From: Burkholderiales bacterium | Lineage (GTDB): Bacteria; Pseudomonadota; Gammaproteobacteria; Burkholderiales; Burkholderiaceae_C | NCBI GenBank assembly: GCA_016213265.1 | Contig: JACRBA010000067.1 | Coordinates: 1 to 45,542, forward strand | Length of the DNA: 45,542 nucleotides | Direction: 5' to 3' | Shown here: positions 1 to 26,536 of the stretch, piece by piece | How positions within the stretch are numbered: position 1 is the stretch's first letter | How the letters are laid out: every line of letters starts with the position of its first letter | The notes under the pieces: model-generated | Database searches by the model: none | Told to the model about the DNA's origin: nothing | What the model saw: only the letters and a program-made list of their open reading frames with translations | Translations under genes and position numbers: made by a program

Positions 1-790
1 AGGCCGCCGCGGTGCCGCTCCAGATGCGCTGGCTGGTGTCGGCGTCCAGCTGCAGCTCGTCGAACAACGCCCGCACCCAGTCCATGCGCTCGCGGATGTG
101 CCCGGCCGAACACGGCAGGAAGCAATCGCTGCCGAATTGCAGCAGACCGGCGCCGATGACCTCCAGCGCGCGCGCCAGCACCTCGCGCCGGTACGGCGGC
201 GGCGGCCCGAAGGAGATGTCGAGCCGGAAGGCACAGCGGTCCTCGGGCACCCCGTGGATGCGGTCGATCAGCGCCACCGCGATCGCCTCGTCCGTCCACG
301 GCCAGCCGCAGTGGGCCAGCGCGACGCGGGCGCCCGGGTGGTCGCGCATCACCTCGAAGTACGCCGGCCGGCAGAAGCGGCCGGACCGTCCGTCGATGAA
401 GATGCCGCTGTGGAACAGCACCGGCAGCTTCAGCTCGCTGGCCACGGCGAACACCGGCTGCACCCGGTCCTCGTGCGGGTACCAGCCGGTGGGCACCATC
501 TTCACGCCGCGCAGCCCGTGCTGCTCCACGGCGCGGCGCAGCATGTCGGGCGCACCCGGCTCGCGCGGGTCCACCACCGCGAAGCCCACCAGCCGGTCGC
601 CGCGGCCCTGGACCAGCTGGCCGAGGAACGCGTTGGCCCGCTCCAGCGATTCCCGGTCGTCGAGCGAATACCCTTCGCTCAGGAACGGCGCCAGCAGCAC
701 GCCCAGGTCGACCTGCGCGCCGTCCAGGCTGGCCAGCACGTCGGCCACGGTCTCGCGCCCCGTCGTGTGCAGGTGGGCATCGATGATCAT
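1..790 (-). CDS. Amidohydrolase family protein (C-terminus off the left edge)
   Basis: The frame begins with ATG at 790 and runs off the window, giving 263 codons without a stop. The N-terminus MIIDAHLHT has the Asp-x-His-x-His metal-binding pattern of the amidohydrolase-2 (TIM-barrel, metal-dependent hydrolase) family. Further on are a His in ALAHCGWPW and an Asp in FGSDCF, the usual positions of later metal ligands. The substrate cannot be read from sequence; relatives hydrolyse or decarboxylate small carboxylated compounds. The ATG overlaps the stop of the upstream glycosyltransferase/mutase gene in an ATGA arrangement, so the two are very likely co-translated. Its role in glycan metabolism is only suggested by that coupling. 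Confidence 0.8.
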   Translation of the reverse strand, partial: MIIDAHLHTTGRETVADVLASLDGAQVDLGVLLAPFLSEGYSLDDRESLERANAFLGQLVQGRGDRLVGFAVVDPREPGAPDMLRRAVEQHGLRGVKMVPTGWYPHEDRVQPVFAVASELKLPVLFHSGIFIDGRSGRFCRPAYFEVMRDHPGARVALAHCGWPWTDEAIAVALIDRIHGVPEDRCAFRLDISFGPPPPYRREVLARALEVIGAGLLQFGSDCFLPCSAGHIRERMDWVRALFDELQLDADTSQRIWSGTAAA

Positions 791-3411
791 GCGTTGGCCT
801 GCGCGGGTTGCACGCCGGGCTGCTGCTCGGCACGCTGCGCCAGCACCTGTTCGGCCGCCTTGCGGCCGGCGATGAACGCGTGGTCGGAGTTGTAGTAGGC
901 CCACTCGCTGTAGCGCCCGGCCAGCACCACGCCGAACTGCGAGAACCACTCGCGGATCAGCGCCACGCGCTCGGCCCGGCCATGGTCGTACACCACGTAC
1001 GCGCAGGGCATGTCCACCTGGCCCGCGCTCACCACCCGGTGCTCGGGGCCGAAGATGCCGACGCGCCGGCAGTCGGCGATGGCGCGCTCGATCAGCGCCG
1101 GGCCGTCGCAGGGCAGCGGCTTGCCCGGGCCGTGGGTGATCTCGCAGGTGAGCGCGAAACCGCCCGGCGCATTGCAGTGCGGGCTGGCGTTGCCCTGCAC
1201 GAAGATGCGGTGGAACACCGTGTCCTCGGGGTAGTAGATCCAATGCTTGTCGGTCAGGCGCTCCTCGCCCGGCAGCAGCTGCACGCCGAGGTTCACGCAG
1301 CGCACCGCCACATGGCGCAGGCCGGCCGCGGCCTCGTGGACCTCGGCCGGTGCCTCGTCGCCGCAGGCCTGCACCAGCTGCGGCAGCGGCATGGTGCTGA
1401 CCAGCGTGTCGAAGCCGATCAACCGGCCGTCCGACAACCGCACCGTGCCCTGGCGCGGACTCACATGCAGCACGCCAGACTTGAGCGACAGCTCGGCATT
1501 GAGCAGCGGGCGGAAGCCGTCCATCAGCGCCTGGAAGCCGCCGCGCAGGGGGTAGCCGAAGCGGGCATTGGGCCCCATCGGCGGCGGCGAGGGCTCCAGC
1601 GCGCCCTGGATCATCTGCTCCAGGTCGGGCAGCGGCACGCGGCCGCCCAGCCAGCTGGTCTCCATCTCGGCCAGCGGCACGGCCCACAGCTTCTCGTTGT
1701 AGGGCACGGCGAAGTGCTTGGCGATGCCCGCGCCCCACACGCGGTGGATGAACTCCTCGAAGTTGGCGGGCGGGGCGCTGGGCGCCGGCGAGCCGGTGCC
1801 CTTGAGCGGGCCGAACCGCGCCTCGATGGCGCCCACCAGGCACTCCTTCAGCACCTGCGGCGGCAGGCCGTACAACGAGCCCTGGAACGGGTAGCGCGTG
1901 TAGACGCCCTGGCTCCAGATCCAGGCCTCGCGGTTCTGCCAGTGCAGGTTGTCGCCCAGCAGCCGCTCGTACAGCGCCAGCACGTAGGGGTCGTCCGAGA
2001 ACATGATGTGCCCGGCGTGGTCGAAGGTGAAGCCGTCCTGCACGATGGAGCGGCACCAGCCGCCCACGCGGTCCTCGCGCTCCACCAGCAGCGTGTCCTG
2101 CGCGCGCGCGCCGGGCTGCTCGCCGAGCGTGAGCGCCGCCGCCAGCCCGGTGGGGCCGGCGCCAATGATGAGCTGGCGCACCTGGCGTGAGGGACGGCTG
2201 GCGCGCACGGGCAGCGGCGTGGCGCGGCTCAGCCCGCCCGGCTGGGCCGACAGGCCGGCCAGCTCGCGCAGCGCCGCCGCCGGCTGAGGCTGCTCGCGCA
2301 GCGCCTCCTGCATCAGCGCATGGATGCACTTGGCGGTGCTGTCCCACGAGGCGCGGAACACGGTCGTGGTCATGGCGTTGAGGCGGTCGGCCCGCTGCTG
2401 CGGCCCTTCCTCGAGCAGCTCGGCACAGGCCTGCACGAACTGGTTGGCGTCACCCGCCACCCGCACCACGTCCCCATAGAGGGCGCGCACGTCGTGCACG
2501 GCCGTGCTCACCACCGGCTTCTCGCCGGCCATGTACTCCAGCGTCTTGGTGGGGCTGATGTAGCGCGTGTGCTCGTTGAGCGCGAAGGGCATCAGGCAGA
2601 GGTCCCACTCGGCCATGAGGTGCGGCAGGCGCTCGTAGGGCTGCATGCCCAGCCAGTGGATGTTCGGCCGCTGCGGCAGGCTCGCGGGGTCGATCTTCAC
2701 CACCGGCCCCACCATCACGATCTGCCAGTCCGGCCGGGCCTCGGCCAGGGTGTCCAGCAGCGACAGGTCCAGCCGCTCGTCGATGACGCCGAAGAAACCC
2801 AGCCGCGGTGGCTGGATGGGCTGCTGCAGCCGGCGGGCCGCTTCCGCCTCGGGGCTGCCCGTGTCACGCAGCGCGGGGGCGAAATGGGCGGCGTCCACTG
2901 CACTGGGCAGGCAGTGCACGCGAGGATGCAGCTGGCGCTTGGCCTCGTACAGCGACGGCCCGCCCGTGAACACCAGGGTGGCCAGCTTGAGCAGCGCCGT
3001 CTCGCGCTGCTGCAGCTGCCGTGGCGCATGCTTGAACGCCGCCAGCTCGTCCATGCAGTCGTACACCACCATGCGCGGCTGCAGCGGCGCCGCCAGCGGC
3101 AGCGCCATGGGTGTGTAGAACCACACGATGGTGTCCGTGATGCCGCGCGCACGCAGGTGTTCGGCCAACAGCGGCGACAGCACGGCGATCTGGTCGTCGT
3201 GGAAGCCCGGCGCGTCGATGGCGGTGTGGGGCACCAGCACGTCGATGTTCGGGCCTTCCGAGCGCTCCACGAGCCGCGCCGGGCCGTCGCCACGCACCGG
3301 CTCCTCCACGAACAGCACGTGGTAGTGCGCGGCCAGGCGGGACATCAGGTGCTGCGGCCGCTGGTAGACGAAATCCCAGCGGAGATGGGACAGCACGATG
3401 AGATGGGGCAT
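787..3411 (-). CDS. Glycosyltransferase - UDP-galactopyranose mutase-like product from an internal start
   Basis: This is the downstream 874 residues of the long frame, read from ATG 3411 (MPHLIVLSHLRWDFVYQRPQ). AGGAG is placed 5 nt upstream, a better ribosome site than that of the full-length start. The first about 380 residues are a GT-B glycosyltransferase; the WDFVYQRPQHL opening is typical of bacterial transferases in this family. The last about 460 residues are an FAD-binding domain with GAGPTGLAAA near the start, followed by DHAGHIMFS. A fused transferase and mutase-like enzyme could make and use a furanose or otherwise rearranged sugar nucleotide; that is inference. Stop TGA overlaps the amidohydrolase ATG. 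Confidence 0.7.
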   Translation of the reverse strand: MPHLIVLSHLRWDFVYQRPQHLMSRLAAHYHVLFVEEPVRGDGPARLVERSEGPNIDVLVPHTAIDAPGFHDDQIAVLSPLLAEHLRARGITDTIVWFYTPMALPLAAPLQPRMVVYDCMDELAAFKHAPRQLQQRETALLKLATLVFTGGPSLYEAKRQLHPRVHCLPSAVDAAHFAPALRDTGSPEAEAARRLQQPIQPPRLGFFGVIDERLDLSLLDTLAEARPDWQIVMVGPVVKIDPASLPQRPNIHWLGMQPYERLPHLMAEWDLCLMPFALNEHTRYISPTKTLEYMAGEKPVVSTAVHDVRALYGDVVRVAGDANQFVQACAELLEEGPQQRADRLNAMTTTVFRASWDSTAKCIHALMQEALREQPQPAAALRELAGLSAQPGGLSRATPLPVRASRPSRQVRQLIIGAGPTGLAAALTLGEQPGARAQDTLLVEREDRVGGWCRSIVQDGFTFDHAGHIMFSDDPYVLALYERLLGDNLHWQNREAWIWSQGVYTRYPFQGSLYGLPPQVLKECLVGAIEARFGPLKGTGSPAPSAPPANFEEFIHRVWGAGIAKHFAVPYNEKLWAVPLAEMETSWLGGRVPLPDLEQMIQGALEPSPPPMGPNARFGYPLRGGFQALMDGFRPLLNAELSLKSGVLHVSPRQGTVRLSDGRLIGFDTLVSTMPLPQLVQACGDEAPAEVHEAAAGLRHVAVRCVNLGVQLLPGEERLTDKHWIYYPEDTVFHRIFVQGNASPHCNAPGGFALTCEITHGPGKPLPCDGPALIERAIADCRRVGIFGPEHRVVSAGQVDMPCAYVVYDHGRAERVALIREWFSQFGVVLAGRYSEWAYYNSDHAFIAGRKAAEQVLAQRAEQQPGVQPAQANA

Positions 3412-4659
3412 GGGAACTCCTGGGGGACAGAGCGGAGGTGTCGGGTCGGGAAACGCACGCTGCCACTGCGACAGCGCGCGGGCGTAGGGCCGGTTGGGAC
3501 GGCGCGGCCGGGTGGCGTCGTGGGCATCCACGTCCCACAGGCCGCTGTGGTGCCAATGGCCGAGGTCGTCCCAGTCCGGCCGGTCGATCAGCGGGTACAG
3601 GCACAGGCCGTGCACGGGCACGCCCATGCCGCGTGCGGCGCGCACCTGGCCCGCCATGTCGCTGAGCCAGCGGGCGCGGCCGATGCCGAGGTGGCTGGTC
3701 TCGGCCACCATGAGCGGGCGGCCATAGCGGCGCCAGGTGTCGGCCAGCAGGTCGGCGGGCCGGCGCCGGCGCGGGTCCATCTCGTGCCAGCGCAGGCGCT
3801 TCTCGGTGAGCACCTCCCACTGGCTGCTGTGGTAGTGGTTCACGCCGATGAGGTCCAGGGCCTCGGGGTGTCCGCCGAGGTCCGCGTCCAGGCGGCCGGC
3901 GAGCATGTCCCACACCTGCCACTGGTAGCCGGCCACCTGCGCCGCCAGGGGCGCCAGCTCGGGCTGCCCGGGTGGCGGCACCGTGTGGATGACCGGCTCC
4001 ACGTGCAGGAAGCGCGCGCGCGGGTCCACGGCGCGCACGGCCTGCATGCCGGCCAGCACCGCGCGCACCAGGCGGCGCTTGACGGCGTAGCCGGACACCT
4101 CGCTGCCCGCGCCGCCTTCCGGCGGGCGGTAGGGGTGGAACTGGTCGCTGCTGGACACCACCCACGAGATGAAGCCGATCTCGTTGATGAGGTTGTAGAC
4201 GGGCGGCTCGGCCTGGGCGTCGTGCCATGGTTTCAGCGCGCGGGCCGCCGCCTCGGCGAAGGCAGCGAAGCGCTCGACGAAGCGGTCGTCGAAGAGGTCC
4301 ACGTCCGGCGGCGTGCCGTAATGCATGAAGGTCCACAGCACCTGCAGGCCGTGGCGCTGCGCGCTGGCCGCCACGGCCTGCAGCCTCGCGAAGTCGAAGC
4401 GCCCGGGAGCCCCCTCCGTGAGGCGCCATCCGATGCTCTCGCGCACGCTGGACACGCCCGCCGCGCGCGCCGCCGCATGGTCCTCGTCGAGGCGCGCCAC
4501 ATGGCCGGTGAACGCCGCCATGTCCAGCGGCACGCCGTGCCGATTGAGGTGGTCGGCCCCTTCGAAGCCACCCATCCAGAAGCCCCGGAAGCAGTCACCC
4601 GTGGAGGGAGGCAGACCAGTGGCAGCAGGTGGGGCGACAGGGGAAACCGGATCGATCAC
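787..4659 (-). CDS. Three-module protein: glycoside hydrolase (clan GH-A type) - glycosyltransferase - UDP-galactopyranose mutase-like flavoprotein
   Basis: One uninterrupted frame of about 1290 residues from GTG 4659. Residues about 30-410 look like a GH1/GH5-type TIM barrel: NE in LINEIGF (acid/base) and E in LMVAETSHLG (nucleophile). Residues 417-800 form a GT-B-like glycosyltransferase with a conserved C-terminal EYMAGEKPVVST segment. Residues 825-1290 start with the dinucleotide-binding motif IIGAGPTGLAAA and resemble UDP-galactopyranose mutase/amine-oxidase flavoproteins. In most genomes I would expect the hydrolase and the transferase-mutase as separate genes. There is no stop between them, but a strong AGGAG lies 5 nt before an internal ATG at 3411, so separate translation is also possible. 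The open frame extends upstream to 4998, but that part overlaps the opposite small gene and has no family-like sequence. Likely role: synthesis or remodelling of an extracellular polysaccharide. Confidence 0.75.
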   Translation of the reverse strand: MIDPVSPVAPPAATGLPPSTGDCFRGFWMGGFEGADHLNRHGVPLDMAAFTGHVARLDEDHAAARAAGVSSVRESIGWRLTEGAPGRFDFARLQAVAASAQRHGLQVLWTFMHYGTPPDVDLFDDRFVERFAAFAEAAARALKPWHDAQAEPPVYNLINEIGFISWVVSSSDQFHPYRPPEGGAGSEVSGYAVKRRLVRAVLAGMQAVRAVDPRARFLHVEPVIHTVPPPGQPELAPLAAQVAGYQWQVWDMLAGRLDADLGGHPEALDLIGVNHYHSSQWEVLTEKRLRWHEMDPRRRRPADLLADTWRRYGRPLMVAETSHLGIGRARWLSDMAGQVRAARGMGVPVHGLCLYPLIDRPDWDDLGHWHHSGLWDVDAHDATRPRRPNRPYARALSQWQRAFPDPTPPLCPPGVPMPHLIVLSHLRWDFVYQRPQHLMSRLAAHYHVLFVEEPVRGDGPARLVERSEGPNIDVLVPHTAIDAPGFHDDQIAVLSPLLAEHLRARGITDTIVWFYTPMALPLAAPLQPRMVVYDCMDELAAFKHAPRQLQQRETALLKLATLVFTGGPSLYEAKRQLHPRVHCLPSAVDAAHFAPALRDTGSPEAEAARRLQQPIQPPRLGFFGVIDERLDLSLLDTLAEARPDWQIVMVGPVVKIDPASLPQRPNIHWLGMQPYERLPHLMAEWDLCLMPFALNEHTRYISPTKTLEYMAGEKPVVSTAVHDVRALYGDVVRVAGDANQFVQACAELLEEGPQQRADRLNAMTTTVFRASWDSTAKCIHALMQEALREQPQPAAALRELAGLSAQPGGLSRATPLPVRASRPSRQVRQLIIGAGPTGLAAALTLGEQPGARAQDTLLVEREDRVGGWCRSIVQDGFTFDHAGHIMFSDDPYVLALYERLLGDNLHWQNREAWIWSQGVYTRYPFQGSLYGLPPQVLKECLVGAIEARFGPLKGTGSPAPSAPPANFEEFIHRVWGAGIAKHFAVPYNEKLWAVPLAEMETSWLGGRVPLPDLEQMIQGALEPSPPPMGPNARFGYPLRGGFQALMDGFRPLLNAELSLKSGVLHVSPRQGTVRLSDGRLIGFDTLVSTMPLPQLVQACGDEAPAEVHEAAAGLRHVAVRCVNLGVQLLPGEERLTDKHWIYYPEDTVFHRIFVQGNASPHCNAPGGFALTCEITHGPGKPLPCDGPALIERAIADCRRVGIFGPEHRVVSAGQVDMPCAYVVYDHGRAERVALIREWFSQFGVVLAGRYSEWAYYNSDHAFIAGRKAAEQVLAQRAEQQPGVQPAQANA

Positions 4660-7727: not shown

Positions 7728-10589
7728 TCAGGCCGCCGCCTGCACCGTCCCCGGCCCCCGCCCCGCCAGGTGCACCAGCGTCGCAATGAGCTCCGGCGGG
7801 TCCACCGGCTTGGCCAGGTGCACCTGGAAGCCGGCCATCAGCGCCATCAGGCGGTGCTCCGGGCGGGCCAGGCCGGTGAGGGCCAGGGCGGGCAGGCGCT
7901 CGGCCAGGGGCACGCCGCGTTCGGCCTCGATCTGGCGGATGCGGCGCACGACGGCGTGGCCGTCCTCGCCGCCGCCGAGCGAGATGTCGCAGGCCAGCAG
8001 CTGGGGCCACTGCGCGGTGGCGTGCTGGTTGAGCCAGCCGATGGCGTCGCGGCCGCTGCTGAAGGCGAGCACGGCGGCGCCTTCTTCCTGGAGCACCTCG
8101 GTGAGCGCGGCCAGCGCATCGCGGTCGTCGTCCACGCACATCACGGCCAGGCCGGCCAGGGGCATGGGCGGCAGCGGTGGCGCCACCGGTGGCACGGGCG
8201 CCACCGGCGGGCCGGGCTCGGCCACGTCGACGCTGCCAGCGTCGGCGCCCGTCGGCGCATCGCCACCCGGCGCGGCGCGGCTCGCCGCCTGGGACGCCGC
8301 CACGAAGGCCGTCGCCTCGGCGGCATGGCCCGGCGCGGGGCGCGCGGCCACGACCAGGGGCAGCAGCGGCAGCTCGAGATGGAAGCGCATGCCGTGCACG
8401 GCCGTGGCCATGTCGGTCTCGAAGCGGCCACCCATGCGTTCCAGGGTGCTGCGCAGGGTCAGCGGGTCCAGCGGCGGGATGTCCGGGTCCAGCTCGGGCA
8501 GCGTGGCCTCGGCCGGCAGCGTGCGGCCCTGTCGGCCGTCGGTGATGCTCACCCGGGCGTTCACGTCGTGGCGCACCAGGCGGATCTCGATGCGGCCGCC
8601 GGCCGGGGTGGCCCGCACGGCCTGCCGCCCGATGGCATAGAGCGCCTGGGCCAGCACGCCGGGGTCACCCGACACGCTGGCGTTGACCAGGTCCACATCG
8701 GTGTACAGCGCGATGCCGCGCGGCTCGGTGAGCGCGCGCAGCGCGTCGACCGTGCCGGCCAGCAGCACGGCCAGGTTCACCGGCTGGCGCGCCATGCGGC
8801 GCTCCAGGCGCTCGAACTCGCGCTGCTGCAGCTGCAGGTTCCACAGCTGGGCGTACAGGCCGTCGCGCTCCAGCAGCGCTTGATGGCGGCCGCTCTCCAC
8901 GATGCGGCCGCGGTCCATCACGACGATCTGGTCGGCATTGACGATGGTGGACAGGCGGTGGGCGATGATGAGCGTGGTGCGCCCCTGTGCGATGCGGTCG
9001 AGCTCGCGCTGGATGGCGCGCTCCGCCCGCGTGTCCAGTGCGGACGTGGCCTCGTCGAAGATCATCAGCGGCGGGTTCTTGAGCAGCGCACGGGCGATGG
9101 CGATGCGCTGCTTCTCGCCGCCCGAGAGCTTCATGCCGCGCTCGCCCACGATGGTGTCGTACTGCTGGGGCAGCGAGACGATGAACTCGTGCACCTGGGC
9201 CGCCTTGGCCGCCTCGATCACCTCGGCCAGGCCCACGCCCATGCGGCCGTAGCCGATGTTGAAGGCGATGGTGTCGTTGAACAGGGCCGTGTCCTGCGAC
9301 ACCACGCCGATGGACTGGTACACCGAGTCCTGTTGCAGGCCGCGCAGGTCCTGCCCGTCGATGAGCACGCGGCCGCCTTGCGGGTCGTACAGGCGCAGCA
9401 GCAGGCGTGCCAGCGTGGACTTGCCCGAGCCGCTGCCGCCCACCACCGCCACCGTCTGCCCCGGCGGCAGGCGCAGGTTGAAGTCGCTGAGGATCGGCCG
9501 GCCGGCCTCGTAGGCGAAGTGCACGTGCTCGAACACCACCTCGCCGCCCTGCAGCGCCAGGGGCTGCGCCCCGGGCGCGTCGGTGATCTCGGGCGCCTGC
9601 TTCAGCAGGCCGAAGAGCTTCTCGGTGTTGACCAGCGCGTCGATGGTCTCGCGGAACACGAAGCCGAGCGTGTTCAGCGGCATGCAGATCTGGATCACGT
9701 AGGAGTTCACCAGCACCAGGTCGCCCACGCTCAGCGTGCCGGCCAGCGTCTGCTGGCCGGCCAGCAGCATCACGGTGGCCACGCCGGCGGCGATGATGGC
9801 GCTCTGGCCGATGTGCAGCACCGACAGCGCCTTCTGGTTGCGCACGCCCGCGTCGATCCAGCGCTGCTGCACCTCCTGGTAGCGGTGCAGCTCGAAGTCG
9901 CGCCTGGCGTAGGTCTTGACCATCTCCACGTTGAGCAGCCCGTCCACCATGCGGCCGGAGGCCAGCGAGTCGATCTCGTTCACCTCGCGCTGGCGCTGCT
10001 CGCGGCGCCGGGTGAGCAGCGTGGTGTAGGTGGCGTAGACGAAGAAGGTGACGCCGATGGTCACGGTGAACCACACGCTGTAGCCCGCGGCGATGAGCAC
10101 CGCGAGCACGAACACGAACTCCACCAGGGTGGGCAACACGGTGAACAGCCCGGCGCCAAGCAGGAAGCCCACCCCGCCAGTGCCACGCTCCACGTCGCGG
10201 ATGAGGCTGCCGGTGTGGCGCGCGGCGTGGAAGCGCGGGCTCAGCGCCAGCAGGTGCGCGAAGGTGCGCTGCGCGAAGGCACCCACGGTGCGCATGGTCA
10301 CGCGGGCGAACATCAGGTCGCGCAGCTCGGTGAACAGCGTGCCGGTGAAGCGCAGCAGTGCATAGCCCAGCAGCAGGAACACCGGCAGGGCGACCACCAG
10401 CTGGCGCGGGTCCGAGGCACCGGCCGCCAGCGCCGCCTCGCGTGCACTGAAGTAGTCGATGATGGCCTTGAAGACCAGCGGCACGCCGACCGCCACGATC
10501 TTGGCGGCCACCAGCAGGCCCAGCGCCGCCAGCGTGCGCCAGCGGTACTGCCAGACGGCGGCCCAGAGGCCGGCGACGACGTCCTTCAT
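7728..10589 (-). CDS. Atm1/HMT1-type ABC exporter fused to a degenerate histidine-kinase ATPase domain and a response-regulator receiver domain
   Basis: 953 residues from ATG 10589, which overlaps the ugd stop (ATGA). Residues 1-320 are a six-span ABC exporter domain with the Atm1-class stretch GRMVDGLLNVEMVKTYARR. Residues 345-580 are a complete ATPase: Walker A GGSGSGKST (Lys390), signature LSGGEKQR, Walker B LMIFDEATSALD. Residues 600-740 resemble a histidine-kinase catalytic domain (GDPGVLAQALYAI, then TPAGGRIEI). There is no phospho-accepting His helix; the N-box Asn is replaced (GRQAVRATP) and the G1 box is altered (DGRQG). After a Pro-rich linker, residues 812-940 are an intact receiver: DDD near 820, Asp868 in CDISL, Thr in ALTGLA, Lys in LAKPVD. 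Atm1-type exporters move glutathione- or metal-linked compounds; the substrate here is unknown. Phosphorylation-gated export is inference. Confidence 0.88.
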   Translation of the reverse strand: MKDVVAGLWAAVWQYRWRTLAALGLLVAAKIVAVGVPLVFKAIIDYFSAREAALAAGASDPRQLVVALPVFLLLGYALLRFTGTLFTELRDLMFARVTMRTVGAFAQRTFAHLLALSPRFHAARHTGSLIRDVERGTGGVGFLLGAGLFTVLPTLVEFVFVLAVLIAAGYSVWFTVTIGVTFFVYATYTTLLTRRREQRQREVNEIDSLASGRMVDGLLNVEMVKTYARRDFELHRYQEVQQRWIDAGVRNQKALSVLHIGQSAIIAAGVATVMLLAGQQTLAGTLSVGDLVLVNSYVIQICMPLNTLGFVFRETIDALVNTEKLFGLLKQAPEITDAPGAQPLALQGGEVVFEHVHFAYEAGRPILSDFNLRLPPGQTVAVVGGSGSGKSTLARLLLRLYDPQGGRVLIDGQDLRGLQQDSVYQSIGVVSQDTALFNDTIAFNIGYGRMGVGLAEVIEAAKAAQVHEFIVSLPQQYDTIVGERGMKLSGGEKQRIAIARALLKNPPLMIFDEATSALDTRAERAIQRELDRIAQGRTTLIIAHRLSTIVNADQIVVMDRGRIVESGRHQALLERDGLYAQLWNLQLQQREFERLERRMARQPVNLAVLLAGTVDALRALTEPRGIALYTDVDLVNASVSGDPGVLAQALYAIGRQAVRATPAGGRIEIRLVRHDVNARVSITDGRQGRTLPAEATLPELDPDIPPLDPLTLRSTLERMGGRFETDMATAVHGMRFHLELPLLPLVVAARPAPGHAAEATAFVAASQAASRAAPGGDAPTGADAGSVDVAEPGPPVAPVPPVAPPLPPMPLAGLAVMCVDDDRDALAALTEVLQEEGAAVLAFSSGRDAIGWLNQHATAQWPQLLACDISLGGGEDGHAVVRRIRQIEAERGVPLAERLPALALTGLARPEHRLMALMAGFQVHLAKPVDPPELIATLVHLAGRGPGTVQAAA

Positions 10590-12037
10590 TTGGCCATCTC
10601 GGCTCCCGGCTGCGGGGCAGGCGCCACGGCCGCCGCGTACACCGTCGCCCGGCCGACCGCCCGCACATGCAGGCCGAGTGCGGCCAGCGCGACGGGCTCG
10701 CACACGCCGCGGCCGTCGAACACCCAGTCGCCCGCCATGCAGCGGCGCACCTTGTGCCAGTCGACGGCGCGGAACTGGGGCCACTCGGTCACGATGACGA
10801 GCGCGTCGGCGCCCGCCACCGCCCCGAACGGGTCGGCGGCGAAGCGCACGCCAGGCAGCCCGGCGTAGCGCTGGCGGGCCGCGGGCATGGCCAGCGGGTC
10901 GTGCGCCACCACTTCTGCGCCCGCGGCCACCAGCGACTGGATCACCGTGTCGCTGGGCGCCTCGCGCAGGTCGTCGGTGCCCGGCTTGAAGGCCAGGCCC
11001 CACAGGGCGATGCGCCGGCCGGCCAGGTGGCCGTCGAAGGCCTCGGCCACCCACTGCGCCAGCAGCGACTTTTGGCGCTCGTTCACGCCTTCGATGGCCT
11101 CGAGCATGGGCAGGGTGAGGCCAGCCTCCGCGGCGCTGCGGCGCAGGGCCCGCAGGTCCTTGGGCAGGCACGAGCCGCCATAGCCGCAGCCGGCATGCAG
11201 CATGTGGGGGCCGATGCGCAGGTCGCTGCCCATGCCGGCACGCACCTCGTCCATGTCCACGCCCAGTTCGGCACCCAGCAGCGCAAAGTCGTTCATCAGG
11301 CTGATGCGCGCGGCGAGCATGACGTTGCTGGCGTACTTGGTGAACTCGGCCGCGCGCACCGACATGGGCATCCAGTGCGCGCCGGCCTCGCGCAGCAGCG
11401 GCTCGTACAGGCGGTGCAGCAGGGCCAGCGCCGGGGGCGCATCGGCCCCGGCCACCACGCGGTCGGGCTGCATGAAGTCGGCCACCGCCGTGCCCTCCTT
11501 GAGGAACTCGGGGTTGGATGCCACGGCGAAGGGCAGGTCGGCCCGGCCGCGCCGCGCCAGCGCGGCGCCGATCACCTCGCGCACACGCTCGGCGGTGCCC
11601 ACCGGCACGGTGCTCTTGTCGACCACCAGCACCTCGCGGGTCATGCGCTCGCCGATGGCGCGCGCCACGGCCAGCACGTGGCGCAGGTCCGCCGATCCGT
11701 CCTCGCCCGCGGGCGTGCCGACGGCGATGAACTGCACGCGGCCATGCGCCACCGCCGCCTCGGCCGACTCGGTGAAACGCAGGCGCCCCGACGCCGCATG
11801 CGTGCGGATCAGCTCGGGCAGGCCCGGCTCGTGAAAGGGCAGCTCGGCGCGAGCCAGCGCCGCGACCCGGGCCGCGTCGGTGTCCATCACCACCACGTCG
11901 TGGCCCAGCTCGGCCAGGCAGGCGCCGGTCACCAGGCCCACGTAGCCGGCGCCGAAGACCGTGACGGCTTCGGCGTCGCGCCGCGGGCGCAGCGGGTGGG
12001 GCGCGGCAGCGGCCGCCGGCAGTTCGTCCTGTCTCAT
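10586..12037 (-). CDS. ugd: UDP-glucose 6-dehydrogenase
   Basis: 483 residues from ATG 12037. It oxidises UDP-glucose to UDP-glucuronate with two NAD+. The NAD-binding motif VFGAGYVGLVTG follows an unusual 25-residue Ala/Pro/Arg-rich extension. The middle domain has KYASNVMLAARISLMND, and the catalytic Cys290 lies in GCGYGGSCLPKD. The third domain has GLAFKPGTDDLREAPS. All key residues are present, so it should be active. Both ends overlap neighbours by ATGA (PLD-like gene upstream, ABC fusion downstream), giving strict translational coupling. UDP-glucuronate usually feeds capsule, exopolysaccharide or lipid A sugar synthesis; the glycosyltransferases nearby are possible users. Confidence 0.95.
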   Translation of the reverse strand: MRQDELPAAAAAPHPLRPRRDAEAVTVFGAGYVGLVTGACLAELGHDVVVMDTDAARVAALARAELPFHEPGLPELIRTHAASGRLRFTESAEAAVAHGRVQFIAVGTPAGEDGSADLRHVLAVARAIGERMTREVLVVDKSTVPVGTAERVREVIGAALARRGRADLPFAVASNPEFLKEGTAVADFMQPDRVVAGADAPPALALLHRLYEPLLREAGAHWMPMSVRAAEFTKYASNVMLAARISLMNDFALLGAELGVDMDEVRAGMGSDLRIGPHMLHAGCGYGGSCLPKDLRALRRSAAEAGLTLPMLEAIEGVNERQKSLLAQWVAEAFDGHLAGRRIALWGLAFKPGTDDLREAPSDTVIQSLVAAGAEVVAHDPLAMPAARQRYAGLPGVRFAADPFGAVAGADALVIVTEWPQFRAVDWHKVRRCMAGDWVFDGRGVCEPVALAALGLHVRAVGRATVYAAAVAPAPQPGAEMAK

Positions 12038-18281: not shown

Positions 18282-19775
<1,494 letters not shown>

Positions 19776-19952: not shown

Positions 19953-22700
19953 CTAGCGAAACAACTGGGCCAGCTGGCGCGGGTCGATGGGCTTGGTCAG
20001 GTGGTGGTCGAAGCCCGAGGCCATGGCCCGCTGGCGGTCGGCCTCCTGGCCCCAGCCGGTGATGGCGATCAGCACCGGCCGCTGGCCGCCTGGCTGGGCA
20101 CGGATCTCGCGCGCCAGCTCGTAGCCATTGCGCCCCGGCATGCCGATGTCGAACAGGCAGACATCGGGGTCGAACTCGCGCCACCGCTCCAGCGCCTCGG
20201 CGCCATCGAAGGACAGGCAGGTGTCGTGGCCCTCCAGGCGCAGCAGGGCAGCCAGGCTGTCGGCCGCATCCCGGTTGTCATCGGCGATCAGCACACGCCG
20301 CGGCGGCACCGGGGCGGCCTCGACCGGCGTCACCGGCTGTGCCTGGGCTGCCGGCGACCCCACCGGCAGGCGCACGGTGAAGGTGCTGCCGCGGCCAGGC
20401 CCGGCGCTGTCCACCTGGATCTGGCCGCCATGCAGCTCGACCAGCCCCTTGGACAGCGCCAGGCCGATGCCCAACCCGGCGCTGCCGCGGTCGCCCCCGG
20501 CGTGCAGCTGGGAGAACATGCGGAAGACCTCGGGCAGCGAGCCGGGTGCAATGCCGATGCCGTCGTCGCTCACCTGGAGCACCACCTCGGCCCCCTCCTG
20601 CCGACCGGCCAGGCGGATGTGACCGCCGCGGTCGGTGTACTTGGCGGCGTTGGTGAGCAGGTTGGCCAGCACCTGCGCCACGCGCAGCGGGTCGGCGACG
20701 AAGTGCACGGGCGCCGCGGGCAGGTCCACGGCCAGCTGGTGCCCGGCAGTGTCGATGGCCGGGCGAGCGGTCTCGACGGCCGATGCCACCACCGCCGCCA
20801 GCTCGGTGGGCACCCGGCGCAGCGACAGCACGCCGCGCGTGATGCGCGAGACGTCCAGCAGGTCGTCGAGCAGCAGCGCCATGTGGCGCACCTGGCGCTC
20901 GATGACCTCGTGGCTCCAGCGCTTCTGGGCCTCGGTGGCCTGCGGGGCCGTGGCCAGCAGCGCCGCCTGGCGGATGGGCGCCAGCGGGTTGCGCAGCTCG
21001 TGCGCCAGCGTGGCGAGGAACTCGTCCTTGCGACGGTCGGCCTCGCGCAGCACGCGCTCGTGGCGCTTGCGCTCGGTGATGTCGTTGAACCAGACCGCCA
21101 CCGCCTCGCGCATGGGCGACGCGATGCAGTGCAGCCAGCCGTCCTCGCCACGCACGCGCGACGGCATCTCGAATGCGCGGGGCACGCGCTGCTCGGCCAC
21201 CGCCGCGTACTCGAGGAACGCCTCGTCGCCCTGCCCTGCGCCCGAGCCGGCCTCGCGCAGACGCCGGCCCACCAGGTCCTGAGGGTTGAACTGCAGCGCC
21301 TCGCCAGCCGCCCGGTTGAGATAGTCCCAGCGGAAGTCGATCACCTGCCCGCCCGGCGCACGCACAGGCACCAGCAGCGCGAAGGGCACGGCGGAGCTTT
21401 CCAGCACCGCCAGGAAGCGGCCCTGCGATTCCTCCAGCGCGGCCTGGGCACGCGCCCGCTCGGTGAACACGGCCGCCTTGCGGGCACAGATGTCGGCCAG
21501 CGCGCGTTCGCGCTCAGTGGGCGCGCGTGCCTCGGACAGGTGCACGGTGATCGCGCCCATGACGCGCCCATCCTGGCTGATGAGCGGCGTGGCATGCACG
21601 GCGCGGAAGCCCTGTGCACGCGCGAGATCGCGGAAGGGCTCGCAGCCGGGGTCGGTGTCCATGTCGACGATGACCACCCGCTGGCCGCTGCGGCTGGCCT
21701 GGCCGCAGGCCCCCTCGTCCGCGCCGCGGCGAGCCAGCAGCGCGCGCGTGGCCGCGTCCACCCCGCAGGCGGCTTGCAGCAGCATCGCGCCGCCATCGGG
21801 CTCCACCAGCGACAGCAGGCCCTGCTGCGCCCCATGGAGCTGCACCAGCGTCTCCAGGATCATCTGCAGCTGGTCCGGCAGGGCATGGGCGTCCAGCAGC
21901 CGGCTGCTCAGGTCGTGCAGCCGGTTCAGGTCGGCCACCTGCTGGCTGAGCTCGGCCTGGGCCTGGGCCAGGCGCGACTCCACCGCCTTGCGCTCGGTGA
22001 TGTCGACGCAGGCGCCGCGCAGGCGCACGGCCCTGTCCTCCAGCCACACCACATGCACCCGCAGCAGCAGCCACAGCGGCTGGCCGCCGGCCTGCGTGAG
22101 CTGCACCTCGCGCTCGTAGCCACGCGAGCGGGCCCGGAACTTCTGCACCAGGGTGCGCCGGCTTTCCTCACGCAGCCCGGCCGGCACATGCGAGAGCCAC
22201 TCGTCGAGCGGCATGGCCGTGGTGGACACCGGCAGGTTCACCGCGCGGGCCAGTGCGGGCGACACATAGGCGGTGCGTGCGTCGAGGTCGAGGTCGAACA
22301 CGCCGATGCCCGTGCCCTGGATGGCCATGACCAGGCGCTCCTCCGCCTCGGCCGCGCGCCGCGCCACGCGGCGCACCCAGGTGCCGAACTCGACCAGCAG
22401 CACGGACACACCCAAGAACAACAGCAGCGAGAGCCGGTCGCCGGGGGCCATCACGGCCAGCTGATCCACCGGCGCCAGCCACAGGGCGCCGCTCACCATG
22501 CCGGCCAGCAACGGCAGCCAGCCCGGCCCGCGCCCGGCCAGCGCGGCCGCCAGCGCCACCGCCGGCAGGAAGAAGACGAACGGCACGCGCCCCTGCAGCC
22601 ACGGCTGCAGCAGCCACTGGCACACGACCGCCAGCGCGCTCAGCGCCATGGCAACGGCATAGCGCCGCCACGGTGACGACGCGAAATGGCGACCAGGCAT
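19953..22700 (-). CDS. Hybrid sensor histidine kinase (membrane, PAS-GAF-PAS-HisKA-HATPase-receiver)
   Basis: 915 residues from ATG 22700. The N-terminus has four hydrophobic segments to about residue 115. Then come a PAS-like domain (MAIQGTGIGVFDLDLDARTA), a GAF domain (HDLSSRLLDAHALPDQL onward), a second PAS region (VDITERK and FNDITERK are the C-caps), and HisKA with His567 in LAHELRNPLAPIRQ. The ATPase part has LLTNAAKYTDRGG, SDDGIGI and GLGIGLALSKGLVELHGG. The C-terminal receiver has ADDNRDAA, Asp851 in LFDIGMPGRNG and Lys in LTKPIDP. All catalytic residues are intact. GTG 22826, two bases after the orf71 stop (TGAGCGTG), would add a 42-residue Arg/Pro-rich extension. The signal is unknown; the sigma-54 regulator downstream is the likely target. 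Confidence 0.92.
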   Translation of the reverse strand: MPGRHFASSPWRRYAVAMALSALAVVCQWLLQPWLQGRVPFVFFLPAVALAAALAGRGPGWLPLLAGMVSGALWLAPVDQLAVMAPGDRLSLLLFLGVSVLLVEFGTWVRRVARRAAEAEERLVMAIQGTGIGVFDLDLDARTAYVSPALARAVNLPVSTTAMPLDEWLSHVPAGLREESRRTLVQKFRARSRGYEREVQLTQAGGQPLWLLLRVHVVWLEDRAVRLRGACVDITERKAVESRLAQAQAELSQQVADLNRLHDLSSRLLDAHALPDQLQMILETLVQLHGAQQGLLSLVEPDGGAMLLQAACGVDAATRALLARRGADEGACGQASRSGQRVVIVDMDTDPGCEPFRDLARAQGFRAVHATPLISQDGRVMGAITVHLSEARAPTERERALADICARKAAVFTERARAQAALEESQGRFLAVLESSAVPFALLVPVRAPGGQVIDFRWDYLNRAAGEALQFNPQDLVGRRLREAGSGAGQGDEAFLEYAAVAEQRVPRAFEMPSRVRGEDGWLHCIASPMREAVAVWFNDITERKRHERVLREADRRKDEFLATLAHELRNPLAPIRQAALLATAPQATEAQKRWSHEVIERQVRHMALLLDDLLDVSRITRGVLSLRRVPTELAAVVASAVETARPAIDTAGHQLAVDLPAAPVHFVADPLRVAQVLANLLTNAAKYTDRGGHIRLAGRQEGAEVVLQVSDDGIGIAPGSLPEVFRMFSQLHAGGDRGSAGLGIGLALSKGLVELHGGQIQVDSAGPGRGSTFTVRLPVGSPAAQAQPVTPVEAAPVPPRRVLIADDNRDAADSLAALLRLEGHDTCLSFDGAEALERWREFDPDVCLFDIGMPGRNGYELAREIRAQPGGQRPVLIAITGWGQEADRQRAMASGFDHHLTKPIDPRQLAQLFR

Positions 22701-23065: not shown

Positions 23066-25633
23066 TCAAGAGCGCGGGGCAAGTTTCAAGCCCAGCCCCT
23101 TCAGCGCCGGGCTGAGGCTCTGCCGGGCCTGGGCGTAGCCCTGCCAGGGGTCGTCGCGGCGGAACGAGAGGTGGTCGCGCGCGGTGAGCACCGTCCAGTG
23201 CGCGCCGCTCTTGAGCTCGGCGAGCTGGTCCCACGACACCGGCATGGACACCCCCATGCCGGGCCGGGCGCGGGCCGAGAAGGCCGCCACGGTGGTGGCG
23301 CGCTCGCCGTTGCGCAGGTAGTCGACGAAGATGCGGCCCACTCGGTTGGCGGGGCCGCTCTTGGCCACGAAGCGCTCGGGCAGCGTGCGGGCCAGGTGCT
23401 CGACGATGGCCTTGGACACCTGCTTGGTCTCGTCCAGCGTCCAGCGCAAGGCCAGCGGCACCACCACATGCAGGCCCTTGCCGCCGCTGGTCTTGAGCCA
23501 CGCCTGGAGCGACAGCTCCTGCAGCAGCGCGCGCACCAGTTGGGCTCCCTCGCGCACCTGCGCGAAGTCCACGCCCTCGCCAGGGTCCAGGTCGAACACC
23601 ATGCGGTCGGCCTTGTGCGGGCTGCGCAGGCGTGCATTGCCCGTGTGCAGCTCGATGACGTTGAGCTGAGCCGCCCCGAGCAGCGCCGCACGGCTGCCGA
23701 TGCGCACCGGCGCGTCGGGGTCGTCGTCGGCCGGGTCATGGCGCTGGAAGAACAAGGGCCCGCCGATGCCCTGCGGGCCGCGCACCTGCGCCACCGCACG
23801 GTCCTTGAGATGGGGCAGGATCCAGTCCGCCACGCTCTCGTAGTAGCGCACCAGGTCCAGCTTGGTGGTGCCGGTGCTGGGGTCGATCACCCGCTCGGGG
23901 TGCGACACCTTCACCCCCGGCACGTCGGAAGCGGCGGCACTCGGCCCGCGGCGGCGCGCCGCCGCGGGCGCCGGCGCCACGTCCTGCTCGCGGGTGATGG
24001 CACGCGGCGCCTTGTCGGCGCGCAGGCCGACGAAGGCCGCGTGCCGCACCTGGCCGGCGGGCGTCCAGCTGCCGAAGGCCACCTCGGCCAGCAGCGCGGG
24101 CTTCACCCAGTGCGGGGCGGCGCCGGCCGCGCGCCGCCAGCGGGTGCTGCCCTGTGCCTCGCCGTGGAAGGGTGAGCGCTCCGTCTCCAGCCTGGCCAGG
24201 CGTTCGCGCAGGGCGCGGCCCTGGGCGGCGTCCCAGCCGGTGCCCACGCGGCCGACCGAGGTGAGCCGACCTTGGTCGTCGTGCACACCGAGCAGCAGCG
24301 CCCCCACCTCCCCGGGGTGGCCCTCGCGGTCGGTGAAGCCGCCGATCACGAACTCCTGTCGCTGCTGGCATTTGAGTTTCAGCCAGGCCGTGCCGCGACC
24401 CGAACGGTACGGCGCATCGGCCTGCTTGGCGATCACGCCCTCCAGGCGCAGGCGGCAGGCCGCCGCCAGCACGCTGGCCGCGTCGGCGCCGGCATCCACG
24501 CTGAAGCGCAGGTGCTCGGTTTCGCGCCCCTCCAGCAGGGCGCGCAGGCGCTCGCGGCGCACCCGCAGCGGCTCGCCCCGCAGGTCGCGGCCGCCGTGGT
24601 GCAGCAGGTCGAAGACGTAGTAGGTGAGCTGGCGGGTGGCGCGCCGGTCGAATGCGTTCTGCAGCGCGTTGAAGTCGGGCACGCCGTCGTCGTCCAGCAC
24701 CACCACCTCGCCGTCCAGCCAGGCATCGCCCAGCTTCAGCGCCGCCAGCTCCTGCGCCAGCGCCGCCATGCGCTCGGTCCAGTCGTGGCCCTGGCGGGTG
24801 ATGAGCCGGGGCACATCGCGCTGCACGCGGGTGAGCACGCGGTAGCCGTCGAACTTGATCTCGTAGATCCAGTCGCCCGCGGCCGGCGGTGCGCTGGCCA
24901 GCGTGGCGAGCTGCGGCTCGATGGCGGCCGGCAAGGCGGCCCGGCGGCCGGTGGCCGGCGCGGCGCTCGCGGGCACCGGGGCGGCGGGTGCATCGCCCCC
25001 GGGCGGCGGCTCCAGGCCGCGCACGCTGTCGGGCGCCGCGGTGACCACGTCGTACTCGGTGTGGGCGCGCGCATGCTCGTCACGCCGCTTGATCAGCAGC
25101 CAGCTGGACTTGGGGCCGGCGGCGGCTTGCCGCCCGCCCAGGCGCACCAGCTCCCAGGCGCCGTGCAGCTTGTGCCCCTTGAGCCGGAAGGACAGCTTGC
25201 CTTTGGCCAGCCCCGCGTGGGGGTCGCCCACCGGCTCCCACTCGCCCCGGTCCCAGACGATCACTTCCCCGGCCCCGTAGTGGCCCTGCGGAATGGTGCC
25301 TTCGAAGTCGGCGTAGCCGAGTGGGTGGTCTTCGGTCTGCACGGCCATGCGCTTGTCGGCCGGGTCGAGGCTGGGGCCCTTGGGCACCGCCCACGAGACC
25401 AGAACGCCGTCGAGCTCCAGGCGGAAGTCGTAGTGCAGGCGGCTTGCGTCGTGCTTCTGCACGACGAAGCCCAGCGGGCCTCCGGCCCGCGGCCGGCGCG
25501 CAGCGCGCGGCTCCGGCGTGCCGCGGAAGTCGCGCTTGGCGCGGTAGGTGGCCAGGCGCTCGGACGGTGTGGACACGGAAGCGGCGGACGCAGCCTCGGG
25601 CGACGCACGCTGGGGCGACGATCGGCTCGGCAT
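23066..25633 (-). CDS. ligD: Multifunctional DNA ligase D (end-joining)
   Basis: 855 residues with the order phosphoesterase - ligase - polymerase/primase. Phosphoesterase (about 30-190): FVVQKHDASRLHYDFRLE and DHPLGYADFEG. ATP-dependent ligase (about 235-530): motif I EIKFDGYR with adenylated Lys260, then WLDGEVVVLD, LEGVIAKQ and WLKLKC. Polymerase (about 570-855): MVFDLDPGEG with catalytic Asp residues, KTSGGKGLHVVVPL and VGRIFVDYLRNG. It fills, trims and seals double-strand breaks with Ku, whose gene ends 18 nt upstream. Full length, all motifs intact. Confidence 0.95.
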   Translation of the reverse strand: MPSRSSPQRASPEAASAASVSTPSERLATYRAKRDFRGTPEPRAARRPRAGGPLGFVVQKHDASRLHYDFRLELDGVLVSWAVPKGPSLDPADKRMAVQTEDHPLGYADFEGTIPQGHYGAGEVIVWDRGEWEPVGDPHAGLAKGKLSFRLKGHKLHGAWELVRLGGRQAAAGPKSSWLLIKRRDEHARAHTEYDVVTAAPDSVRGLEPPPGGDAPAAPVPASAAPATGRRAALPAAIEPQLATLASAPPAAGDWIYEIKFDGYRVLTRVQRDVPRLITRQGHDWTERMAALAQELAALKLGDAWLDGEVVVLDDDGVPDFNALQNAFDRRATRQLTYYVFDLLHHGGRDLRGEPLRVRRERLRALLEGRETEHLRFSVDAGADAASVLAAACRLRLEGVIAKQADAPYRSGRGTAWLKLKCQQRQEFVIGGFTDREGHPGEVGALLLGVHDDQGRLTSVGRVGTGWDAAQGRALRERLARLETERSPFHGEAQGSTRWRRAAGAAPHWVKPALLAEVAFGSWTPAGQVRHAAFVGLRADKAPRAITREQDVAPAPAAARRRGPSAAASDVPGVKVSHPERVIDPSTGTTKLDLVRYYESVADWILPHLKDRAVAQVRGPQGIGGPLFFQRHDPADDDPDAPVRIGSRAALLGAAQLNVIELHTGNARLRSPHKADRMVFDLDPGEGVDFAQVREGAQLVRALLQELSLQAWLKTSGGKGLHVVVPLALRWTLDETKQVSKAIVEHLARTLPERFVAKSGPANRVGRIFVDYLRNGERATTVAAFSARARPGMGVSMPVSWDQLAELKSGAHWTVLTARDHLSFRRDDPWQGYAQARQSLSPALKGLGLKLAPRS

Positions 25634-25651: not shown

Positions 25652-26536
25652 TCACGCCCGTTTGCGGCTGCTGCCGCTGGCGGTCCGGCGCGTGGTCCTG
25701 CGCGGTTGCGCGTCGACGCCCTCGTCGGCCGCCGCTGCACCGCCCCGCTTGCCCAGGCTGCGCTTGAGCAGCTCGGTGAGGTCCACCACGTTGCCGGTGC
25801 GTGGCGCGGCGCCCTCCTCCATCGGCTCCACACGGTGCGTCTTGCCCGAGTCGACACGCTGCTCGATCAGCAGCTCGATGGCCTTGGTGAACTGGTCGTC
25901 ATAACGCCCGACCTCGAAGGTCTCGGTCATGTCCTCGATGAGCTGGCGGGCCATCTTCAACTCGGCCTCCTTCAGGCCGGCACCCGCGCGGCCCTCGGCC
26001 GGCAGCTTGAGCTCGTCCCAGGGCCGGATCTCCTCGGCCCAGCGCAGGGTGTTCACGATGAGCGCCGGGCCGGCCGGCACCAGGGCGCACAGGTGTTCGC
26101 GGGTGTGCATCACCACCCGCGCGATGCCGATCACGCCCGCCTCCCGCATGGCCTCACGCAGCAGGCCGTAGGCCTTCTCGCCCTTGGCCTGTGGCTCGAG
26201 GTAGTACGGCGCCTCCAGGTGCACGAAGGGCACCTCGGCCGCCTGGACGAAGCTCTCGATGGCGATCGTCTGCGTGGTCTTGGGGTAGGCCTCCCGGATC
26301 TCGTCCTCGCTGAGCAGGACGTAGTCGCCACCGGGCACCTTCACGCCCTTGACGATGTGCTCCTTGTCGATCTCCTTGCCGGTGCGCTTGTTCACACGCT
26401 TGTAGCCCACCGGGTCCATGCTGCGCTTGTCGAGCCAGTCGAAGTCGATGCCGCTCTGCCGCGAGGCCGGGTAGAGCGCCACGGGGATGTGCACCAGGCC
26501 GAAGCTGATGGCGCCTTTCCAGATCATGCGGGGCAT
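25652..26536 (-). CDS. ku: Ku protein (non-homologous end joining)
   Basis: 294 residues from ATG 26536, preceded by AGGAG with 6 nt spacing. The start MPRMIWKGAISFGLVHIPV is the standard bacterial Ku N-terminus. The core has VNKRTGKEIDKEHIVKG, ILLSEDEI-like VLLSEDEIREAYP and ETFEVGRYDDQF. The C-terminus is a Lys/Arg-rich tail (QPRRTTRRTASGSSRKRA), typical for DNA binding and LigD recruitment. Ku forms a homodimeric ring on broken DNA ends. The reading frame is open upstream into ybhN with no stop, so a fused product is possible, but the ribosome site and family-typical start favour Ku as a separate protein. Confidence 0.93.
   Translation of the reverse strand: MPRMIWKGAISFGLVHIPVALYPASRQSGIDFDWLDKRSMDPVGYKRVNKRTGKEIDKEHIVKGVKVPGGDYVLLSEDEIREAYPKTTQTIAIESFVQAAEVPFVHLEAPYYLEPQAKGEKAYGLLREAMREAGVIGIARVVMHTREHLCALVPAGPALIVNTLRWAEEIRPWDELKLPAEGRAGAGLKEAELKMARQLIEDMTETFEVGRYDDQFTKAIELLIEQRVDSGKTHRVEPMEEGAAPRTGNVVDLTELLKRSLGKRGGAAAADEGVDAQPRRTTRRTASGSSRKRA

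Follow-up and report, generated by a model that had tools for sequence, protein, structure and literature searches.

Two-component systems usually reach transporters through gene expression or through sensing by separate proteins. In BceAB-BceRS, an ATP-binding cassette (ABC) transporter that senses flux is paired with two-component signalling, but the partners are separate proteins and the regulator has DNA as its target. CbrA-type fusions join an SLC5 transporter and an active kinase in one polypeptide, presumably as a sensor. Here, we describe a gene in which an Atm1-type ABC exporter, a degenerate histidine-kinase-like ATPase domain and a receiver domain form a single protein of 953 residues. 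It lies in a 45,542-nucleotide stretch of a Burkholderiales bacterium genome (contig JACRBA010000067.1), hereafter the window. We propose that it represents a family of Atm1-derived exporters with a C-terminal half taken from a hybrid histidine kinase, in which the receiver, phosphorylated by a kinase acting in trans, would control transport. To this reading we assign a probability of roughly 0.6.

An exporter, an ATPase-like domain and a receiver in one frame

The gene is a single unbroken frame, with its ATG at 10589 and the end of its stop codon at 7728. Pfam and Protein Data Bank (PDB) matches along this frame bear out the three-part arrangement that an earlier sequence-only reading of the same DNA had put forward (Table 1). 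The exporter part finds its best PDB matches in AtAtm3 (ABCB25; E = 3.9e-153) and NaAtm1 (E = 2.8e-135). Its nucleotide-binding domain (NBD) carries Walker A K390, the signature LSGGE and Walker B D512/E513, with the H-loop H544 beyond the ABC_tran match. At the other end, the receiver phospho-site is complete in sequence, comprising the acidic pair D820/D821, the acceptor D868, T905 and K927; K390 and D868 are where the sequence-only reading placed them. The HATPase_c match between exporter and receiver is weak (14.6 bits against a cut-off of 26.4). The full-length AlphaFold model has a mean predicted local distance difference test (pLDDT) score of 82.6 and shows a single unbroken helix, 578–600, that leads out of the NBD and reaches the beginning of the ATPase-like domain, the place where, as we infer from the model, kinase dimerisation helices would end. 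The protein has the sequence features of a phosphorylatable receiver and lacks those of a histidine kinase. Overall, its closest functional counterpart appears to be a response regulator whose output is an enzyme, here a pump.

The fusion recurs across Burkholderiales

To survey the distribution, a profile of the middle region (four rows) was run on a sample of 399 genomes from the window's family and matched in 25 of them at E ≤ 8.1e-34. Below these, the listed matches (E = 1.3e-20 and weaker) start at profile position 6 or later and, outside the 25, their genomes lack the exporter core. A 399-genome sample of the order, including a few members of the window's own family, yielded six more fusions outside the family and brought the Burkholderiales total to 31 genomes (25 from the family and six from the order). 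Counts outside the family sample are lower bounds, as G750, G714 and G686 proved to contain fusions despite weak matches (E = 1.3e-26, 1.1e-19 and 6.0e-17, respectively). At class level (369 genomes), the window's own match was the only one, among the matches listed, to span the first 10 profile positions, with the exporter core not searched there; the best other class match was L111, an ordinary hybrid kinase.

When fetched with flanks, all 31 genome loci contained a single continuous gene for 886–1026 residues (script-called). Additionally, tblastn matched 32 plasmid records, at least six of which (the first six of the 12 matches listed) contain further fusions with continuous frames of 887–915 residues: Cupriavidus sp. 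EM10, Caballeronia sp. M1242, Paraburkholderia sp. D15, Caballeronia zhejiangensis, Burkholderia multivorans and Paraburkholderia sprentiae. Pfam searches of three of these six found exporter and receiver in each. We combined the 31 genome loci and six plasmid replicons into a 37-member set, in which species overlap between the two sources is possible. A frameshift or assembly artefact, which the sequence-only reading had named as one way to refute it, was rejected, with the same continuous frame present at 36 other loci (30 genomes and six replicons).

The spread is patchy, covering 16 of the 141 genera in the family sample. An occurrence throughout the window's genus was also considered and rejected: 15 other genomes of the genus gave no strong C-terminal match (best E = 2.5e-6), and an exporter-core search was likewise negative in five of these. 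Four of the six plasmid members are annotated as ABC proteins only ('ATP-binding cassette domain-containing protein' or 'ABC transporter transmembrane domain-containing protein'), and the other two records carry no features in the relevant stretch. Since these four public records bear ABC labels only, automatic annotation can hide the architecture.

A kinase-like half with a conserved receiver and a degenerate ATPase domain

A profile of the 31 genomic C-terminal regions aligned with the HATPase-receiver part of L111, which by our reading has the order receiver-PAS-HisKA-HATPase-receiver, at hhalign E = 3.3e-54 and 34% identity; BLASTP of the window's C-terminal region against L111 gave E = 1e-39. 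An AlphaFold model of the C-terminal region built from 31 sequences reached a mean pLDDT of 87.7. Its best PDB match in Foldseek was the hybrid kinase ShkA (E = 1.2e-12), followed by kinase catalytic domains and the GacS receiver; the window model matched GacS D1 at E = 6.5e-9.

Within this half, the two domains differ in what they retain. Over the 37 members, the receiver keeps the Asp-Asp acidic pair in 33, the acceptor Asp in 33, and the Thr/Ser and Lys in all, amounting to a complete phospho-site in 33 of 37. The description of the receiver as 'live' therefore fits the window protein and 32 other members and fails for four members of one genus, discussed below. In the ATPase-like domain, Pfam detected HATPase_c at E ≤ 0.01 in 20 of the 31 C-terminal regions, compared with Response_reg in all 31. 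The claimed loss of the N-box Asn is confirmed for the window (Q656) and 33 of 37 members overall, but the residue persists in four (L104, L147, L148 and L149). The G1-box Asp is kept in 23 of 37, and a G2 (GxGLG) motif occurs only in L083, where it probably arose by chance because it lies within a linker insert. Considering these box losses together with the 20 of 31 HATPase_c matches, the ATPase domain appears to be a relic fold that has probably lost nucleotide binding in most members.

Pfam searches detected HisKA neither in the window protein (E up to 1) nor in the 31 C-terminal regions, in line with the earlier statement that a phospho-accepting His helix is absent; HPTransfase was weakly matched in one of the 31 regions (E = 0.0067). 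Because there is no such helix, the suggestion that the degenerate domain acts as a relay is not supported, and a role as a structural linker or binding module would fit it better.

Evolution of the exporter core

A maximum-likelihood tree was built from 31 fused cores together with 12 Atm1 paralogues and a single outgroup. All fused exporters fall in one clade: their cores occupy one side of a branch with support of 98/95, and 99% of bootstrap trees recover this branch. The outgroup is very long, the root is a drawing aid, and support for the unfused group is poor (66/0). The 12 paralogues end no more than 25 residues from the aligned end of the exporter core and are, therefore, unfused at the C terminus. 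They derive from an exporter-core search of 13 genomes, 12 of which contain an unfused Atm1 paralogue at 49–53% identity, eight of them together with a fusion; in the 13th (G724), the fusion alone exceeded the threshold.

Searching the exporter core in the 399 family genomes (E = 1e-184) returned 25, identical to the 25 fusion genomes and with frames all of at least 906 residues, and no unfused form of the fusion-type core was found among the 399. ATPase residues of the exporter are kept in 31 of 31 members (Walker A Lys, Q-loop Gln, signature Ser, Walker B Asp and Glu, and H-loop His). Nei-Gojobori ratios of nonsynonymous to synonymous substitution rates (dN/dS) were below 0.6 in each of the four domains for the nine pairs examined.

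Substrate pocket and gene neighbourhood

Near-fixed differences between 37 fused and 12 unfused cores are confined to nine positions. Two of these are Gln200 and His259, present in 37 of 37 fused cores, where all 12 unfused ones have Arg and Asn; by HMMER alignment they correspond to AtAtm3 R328 and N387. Both belong to the conserved glutathione-pocket residues of AtAtm3, given in excerpts of PMC9000953 as T317, R324, R328, N387, Q390, L433, G437 and R441. The window protein keeps the other six of these eight and, measured against that excerpted list, does not have the full standard glutathione pocket. By this test, the exporter would be Atm1-derived and not a standard glutathione exporter.

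We examined the flanks of the 31 genome loci, fetched mostly at ~8 kb on each side. Neighbours were clustered by similarity with single linkage, which may lump broad families; 32 clusters occur in at least three loci, and one representative from each of ten clusters was scanned. Recurrent neighbours are short-chain dehydrogenases/reductases (20 loci), carbamoyltransferases (15), glycosyltransferases of family 4 (13), family 2 (10) and family 9 (10), and haloacid dehalogenase (HAD) hydrolases (6). Four of these clusters (the carbamoyltransferase and the three glycosyltransferase clusters) point to glycan synthesis, and 19 of the 31 loci have at least one of them close to the fusion. The four annotated plasmid loci bear family 9 glycosyltransferase/heptosyltransferase, HAD hydrolase and carbamoyltransferase labels, with a PIG-L deacetylase in two. 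On the basis of the altered pocket and the glycan-gene neighbourhood, the cargo is probably no longer a standard glutathione compound and may be tied to a glycan of the envelope or to the lipid that carries it.

Other neighbours were also recorded. A conserved protein of ~170 residues (for example, at 9003–9521 of L096) recurs in 14 of the 31 loci, in 11 of them as the next gene downstream of the fusion, and is a candidate partner. Four members scanned gave no Pfam match above the cut-off; one member showed a sub-threshold HbpS-like match (13.6 bits against a cut-off of 25). L082-L085 contain a second ABC exporter (578–726 residues as called) seven to eight genes upstream of the fusion and beside a protein of 158–163 residues, which we take to be a DUF1854-type cyanophycin-associated protein. 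In B. multivorans, the BON and alcohol-dehydrogenase neighbours suggest a possible link to the low-oxygen-activated locus of B. cenocepacia. Excerpts of PMC9104464, PMC6127331 and PMC3759415 do not show the fusion in that B. cenocepacia locus.

Proposed receiver-controlled transport and its alternatives

The occurrence of the same three-part protein in dozens of related bacteria suggests that the pump may be set directly by a signalling kinase. In the scenario we favor, an Atm1-type exporter gained the ATPase domain and receiver of a hybrid histidine kinase, apparently once. By analogy to Atm1, the protein would be a homodimer, in which the helix leaving the NBD could stand in for the lost dimerisation and His helices of the kinase, as the model suggests. 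As residue conservation shows, the ATPase domain lost its ATP-binding motifs, with the receiver keeping a complete phospho-site in most lineages. A histidine kinase in trans, perhaps acting through a phosphotransfer protein, would phosphorylate Asp868; the altered state of the receiver would be conveyed to the NBD dimer by way of the pseudo-ATPase domain and the unbroken helix, changing the transport rate. The most novel formulation, a class of response regulators with an exporter as output, gated post-translationally by a phosphorelay that the retired ATPase domain transmits, and with one lineage locked by an Asp-to-Glu exchange, has in our judgment an even chance of being right.

Several observations weigh against receiver-controlled transport. 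Switching by phosphorylation of Asp868, as previously proposed, is consistent with the conservation of phospho-site residues across deep divergence, but no kinase was found to be conserved nearby: a kinase-like cluster is near eight of 31 loci, an NtrC-type regulator cluster near eight, either of the two near 12 and an H-box-like motif, searched with a narrow pattern, near four. The window itself contains a hybrid kinase and an NtrC-type regulator ~8–12 kb from the fusion (Table 1), and this kinase is a possible phosphodonor. The AlphaFold models are monomers, with NBD-receiver contact outside their scope. Regarding cargo, retention of six of the eight pocket residues leaves a glutathione-related compound conceivable, and the four glycan clusters are missing from the seen stretch in 12 of 31 loci, including all four of Azohydromonas and some short contigs. 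Lastly, L082-L085, which represent one genus (Azohydromonas, label g93) and one clade in the tree, have Glu at the acceptor position and Glu-Pro for the acidic pair, while Ser and Lys are kept. Receiver dN/dS is 0.37–0.56 in three Azohydromonas pairs compared with 0.07–0.43 in six others, ranges that overlap. As Glu replaces Asp, export in Azohydromonas may be fixed in one state, making these receivers candidate locked switches.

An alternative that we consider unlikely is that the transporter is itself the sensor, with the exporter altering the phosphorylation or availability of the receiver, which in turn would feed a phosphotransfer protein or serve as a phosphate sink. The resemblance to hybrid-kinase receivers, a type that usually passes phosphate on, speaks for it, as do flux-sensing transporter-kinase pairs such as BceAB-BceRS. 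However, the kinase helices are gone and the ATP site is broken, so the protein is unable to start a phosphorelay itself, and no phosphotransfer family appeared among the ten cluster representatives scanned (of 32 clusters), the search being confined to these ten.

Somewhat less probable still is a receiver that functions as a docking or dimerisation module irrespective of phosphorylation. The four Azohydromonas members retain the domain despite their Glu and Glu-Pro exchanges, and pseudo-receivers are common according to excerpts of PMC12632262. Against this, 33 of 37 members retain every phospho-site residue, and the losses seen are confined to one clade carrying both changes; the higher but overlapping receiver dN/dS of that clade adds a weak argument. 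A vestigial fusion with no regulatory role, to which the lost catalytic motifs of the ATPase domain might point, is very improbable given that the exporter core was never found without the module in the 399 family genomes and that each part shows dN/dS below 0.6 in nine pairs.

Other genes in the window

Two further composite frames were observed, both on the minus strand. At 25652–27664, a frame of 670 residues combines an LPG_synthase_TM region (residues 43–328) with a Ku domain (387–553) and adjoins a LigD gene at 23066–25576. When searched in 40 genomes, its own included, seven others matched, in the Ku part only and in frames of 301–376 residues, one with two internal stops. Because the other matches span the Ku part only, this frame is either a rare fusion or the product of a lost stop between neighbors. 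The second, at 787–4575, encodes 1262 residues with a glycosyltransferase group 1 domain (606–722) and a flavin amine oxidoreductase domain (809–1244).

Table 1 Positions of the fusion gene, its parts and selected neighbouring genes in the window.
Feature	Position	Strand	Basis or remark
Whole gene, 953-residue ABC exporter–pseudo-HATPase–receiver fusion	7728..10589	-	Open reading frame and Pfam
ABC_membrane, Atm1-type	9675..10526	-	Residues 22-305, Pfam E 3.1e-29
ABC_tran	9042..9491	-	Residues 367-516, Pfam E 7.7e-34
Predicted continuous helix, NBD to pseudo-HATPase domain	8790..8858	-	Residues 578-600, AlphaFold model
Degenerate HATPase_c-like domain	8364..8786	-	Residues ~602-742; N-box position Gln656, no G2 box
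Ala/Pro-rich linker, mostly low-confidence in model	8154..8363	-	Residues 743-812
Receiver domain (Response_reg)	7779..8144	-	Residues 816-937, Pfam E 4.4e-15
Codon GAC of putative phospho-acceptor Asp868	7986..7988	-	Sequence
UDP-glucose/GDP-mannose dehydrogenase gene	10586..12037	-	Upstream; its stop shares 4 bases (ATGA) with the exporter start
NtrC-type response regulator (receiver, sigma-54 AAA, HTH_8)	18282..19775	-	Adjoins the hybrid kinase
Hybrid histidine kinase (DUF4118, GAF, PAS, HisKA, HATPase, receiver)	19953..22649	-	Candidate phosphodonor

Comparison with known systems

If the proposal is correct, a receiver built into an exporter would provide fast phosphorylation control of transport. 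As a one-protein system, the fusion would make phosphorylation and ATPase or transport activity directly measurable, and the 33 complete phospho-sites and four Glu pseudo-receivers offer a natural comparison. It would also define a bacterial Atm1 branch in which the glutathione pocket, as known from the excerpted AtAtm3 list, is rewritten.

The systems considered each share part of this architecture. BceAB-BceRS shows a like pairing, but there of separate proteins. CbrA-type proteins join a transporter to two-component domains as here; in the fusion, the kinase part appears dead and the receiver would be the live part. Hybrid histidine kinases such as L111 and ShkA share an ATPase-like domain and a receiver that agree with those of the fusion in order and sequence, but in the fusion no sensor domains were found, the His helices are absent, the ATP site is broken and an ABC exporter stands in their place. 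Atm1/ABCB7-type exporters (NaAtm1, AtAtm3 and ABCB7) resemble the fusion over the whole exporter core and in six of the eight pocket residues of the excerpted list, whereas the fusion adds a 365-residue signalling module and the pocket exchanges Arg-to-Gln and Asn-to-His in all 37 members. Among the matches listed, the titles and abstract beginnings of open-licence PubMed Central papers, a collection with subscription papers and preprints mostly outside it, contained no description of an ABC-receiver fusion, in keeping with the earlier statement that no such family was known. The nearest analogue among those matches is Rv1747, an ABC transporter that, according to excerpts of PMC3908365 and PMC5549992, carries FHA domains and shares an operon with the kinase PknF. 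It is alike in having phospho-signalling domains fused to the transporter and differs in being, from the same excerpts, a Ser/Thr-kinase and FHA system with unrelated domains in place of a two-component receiver.

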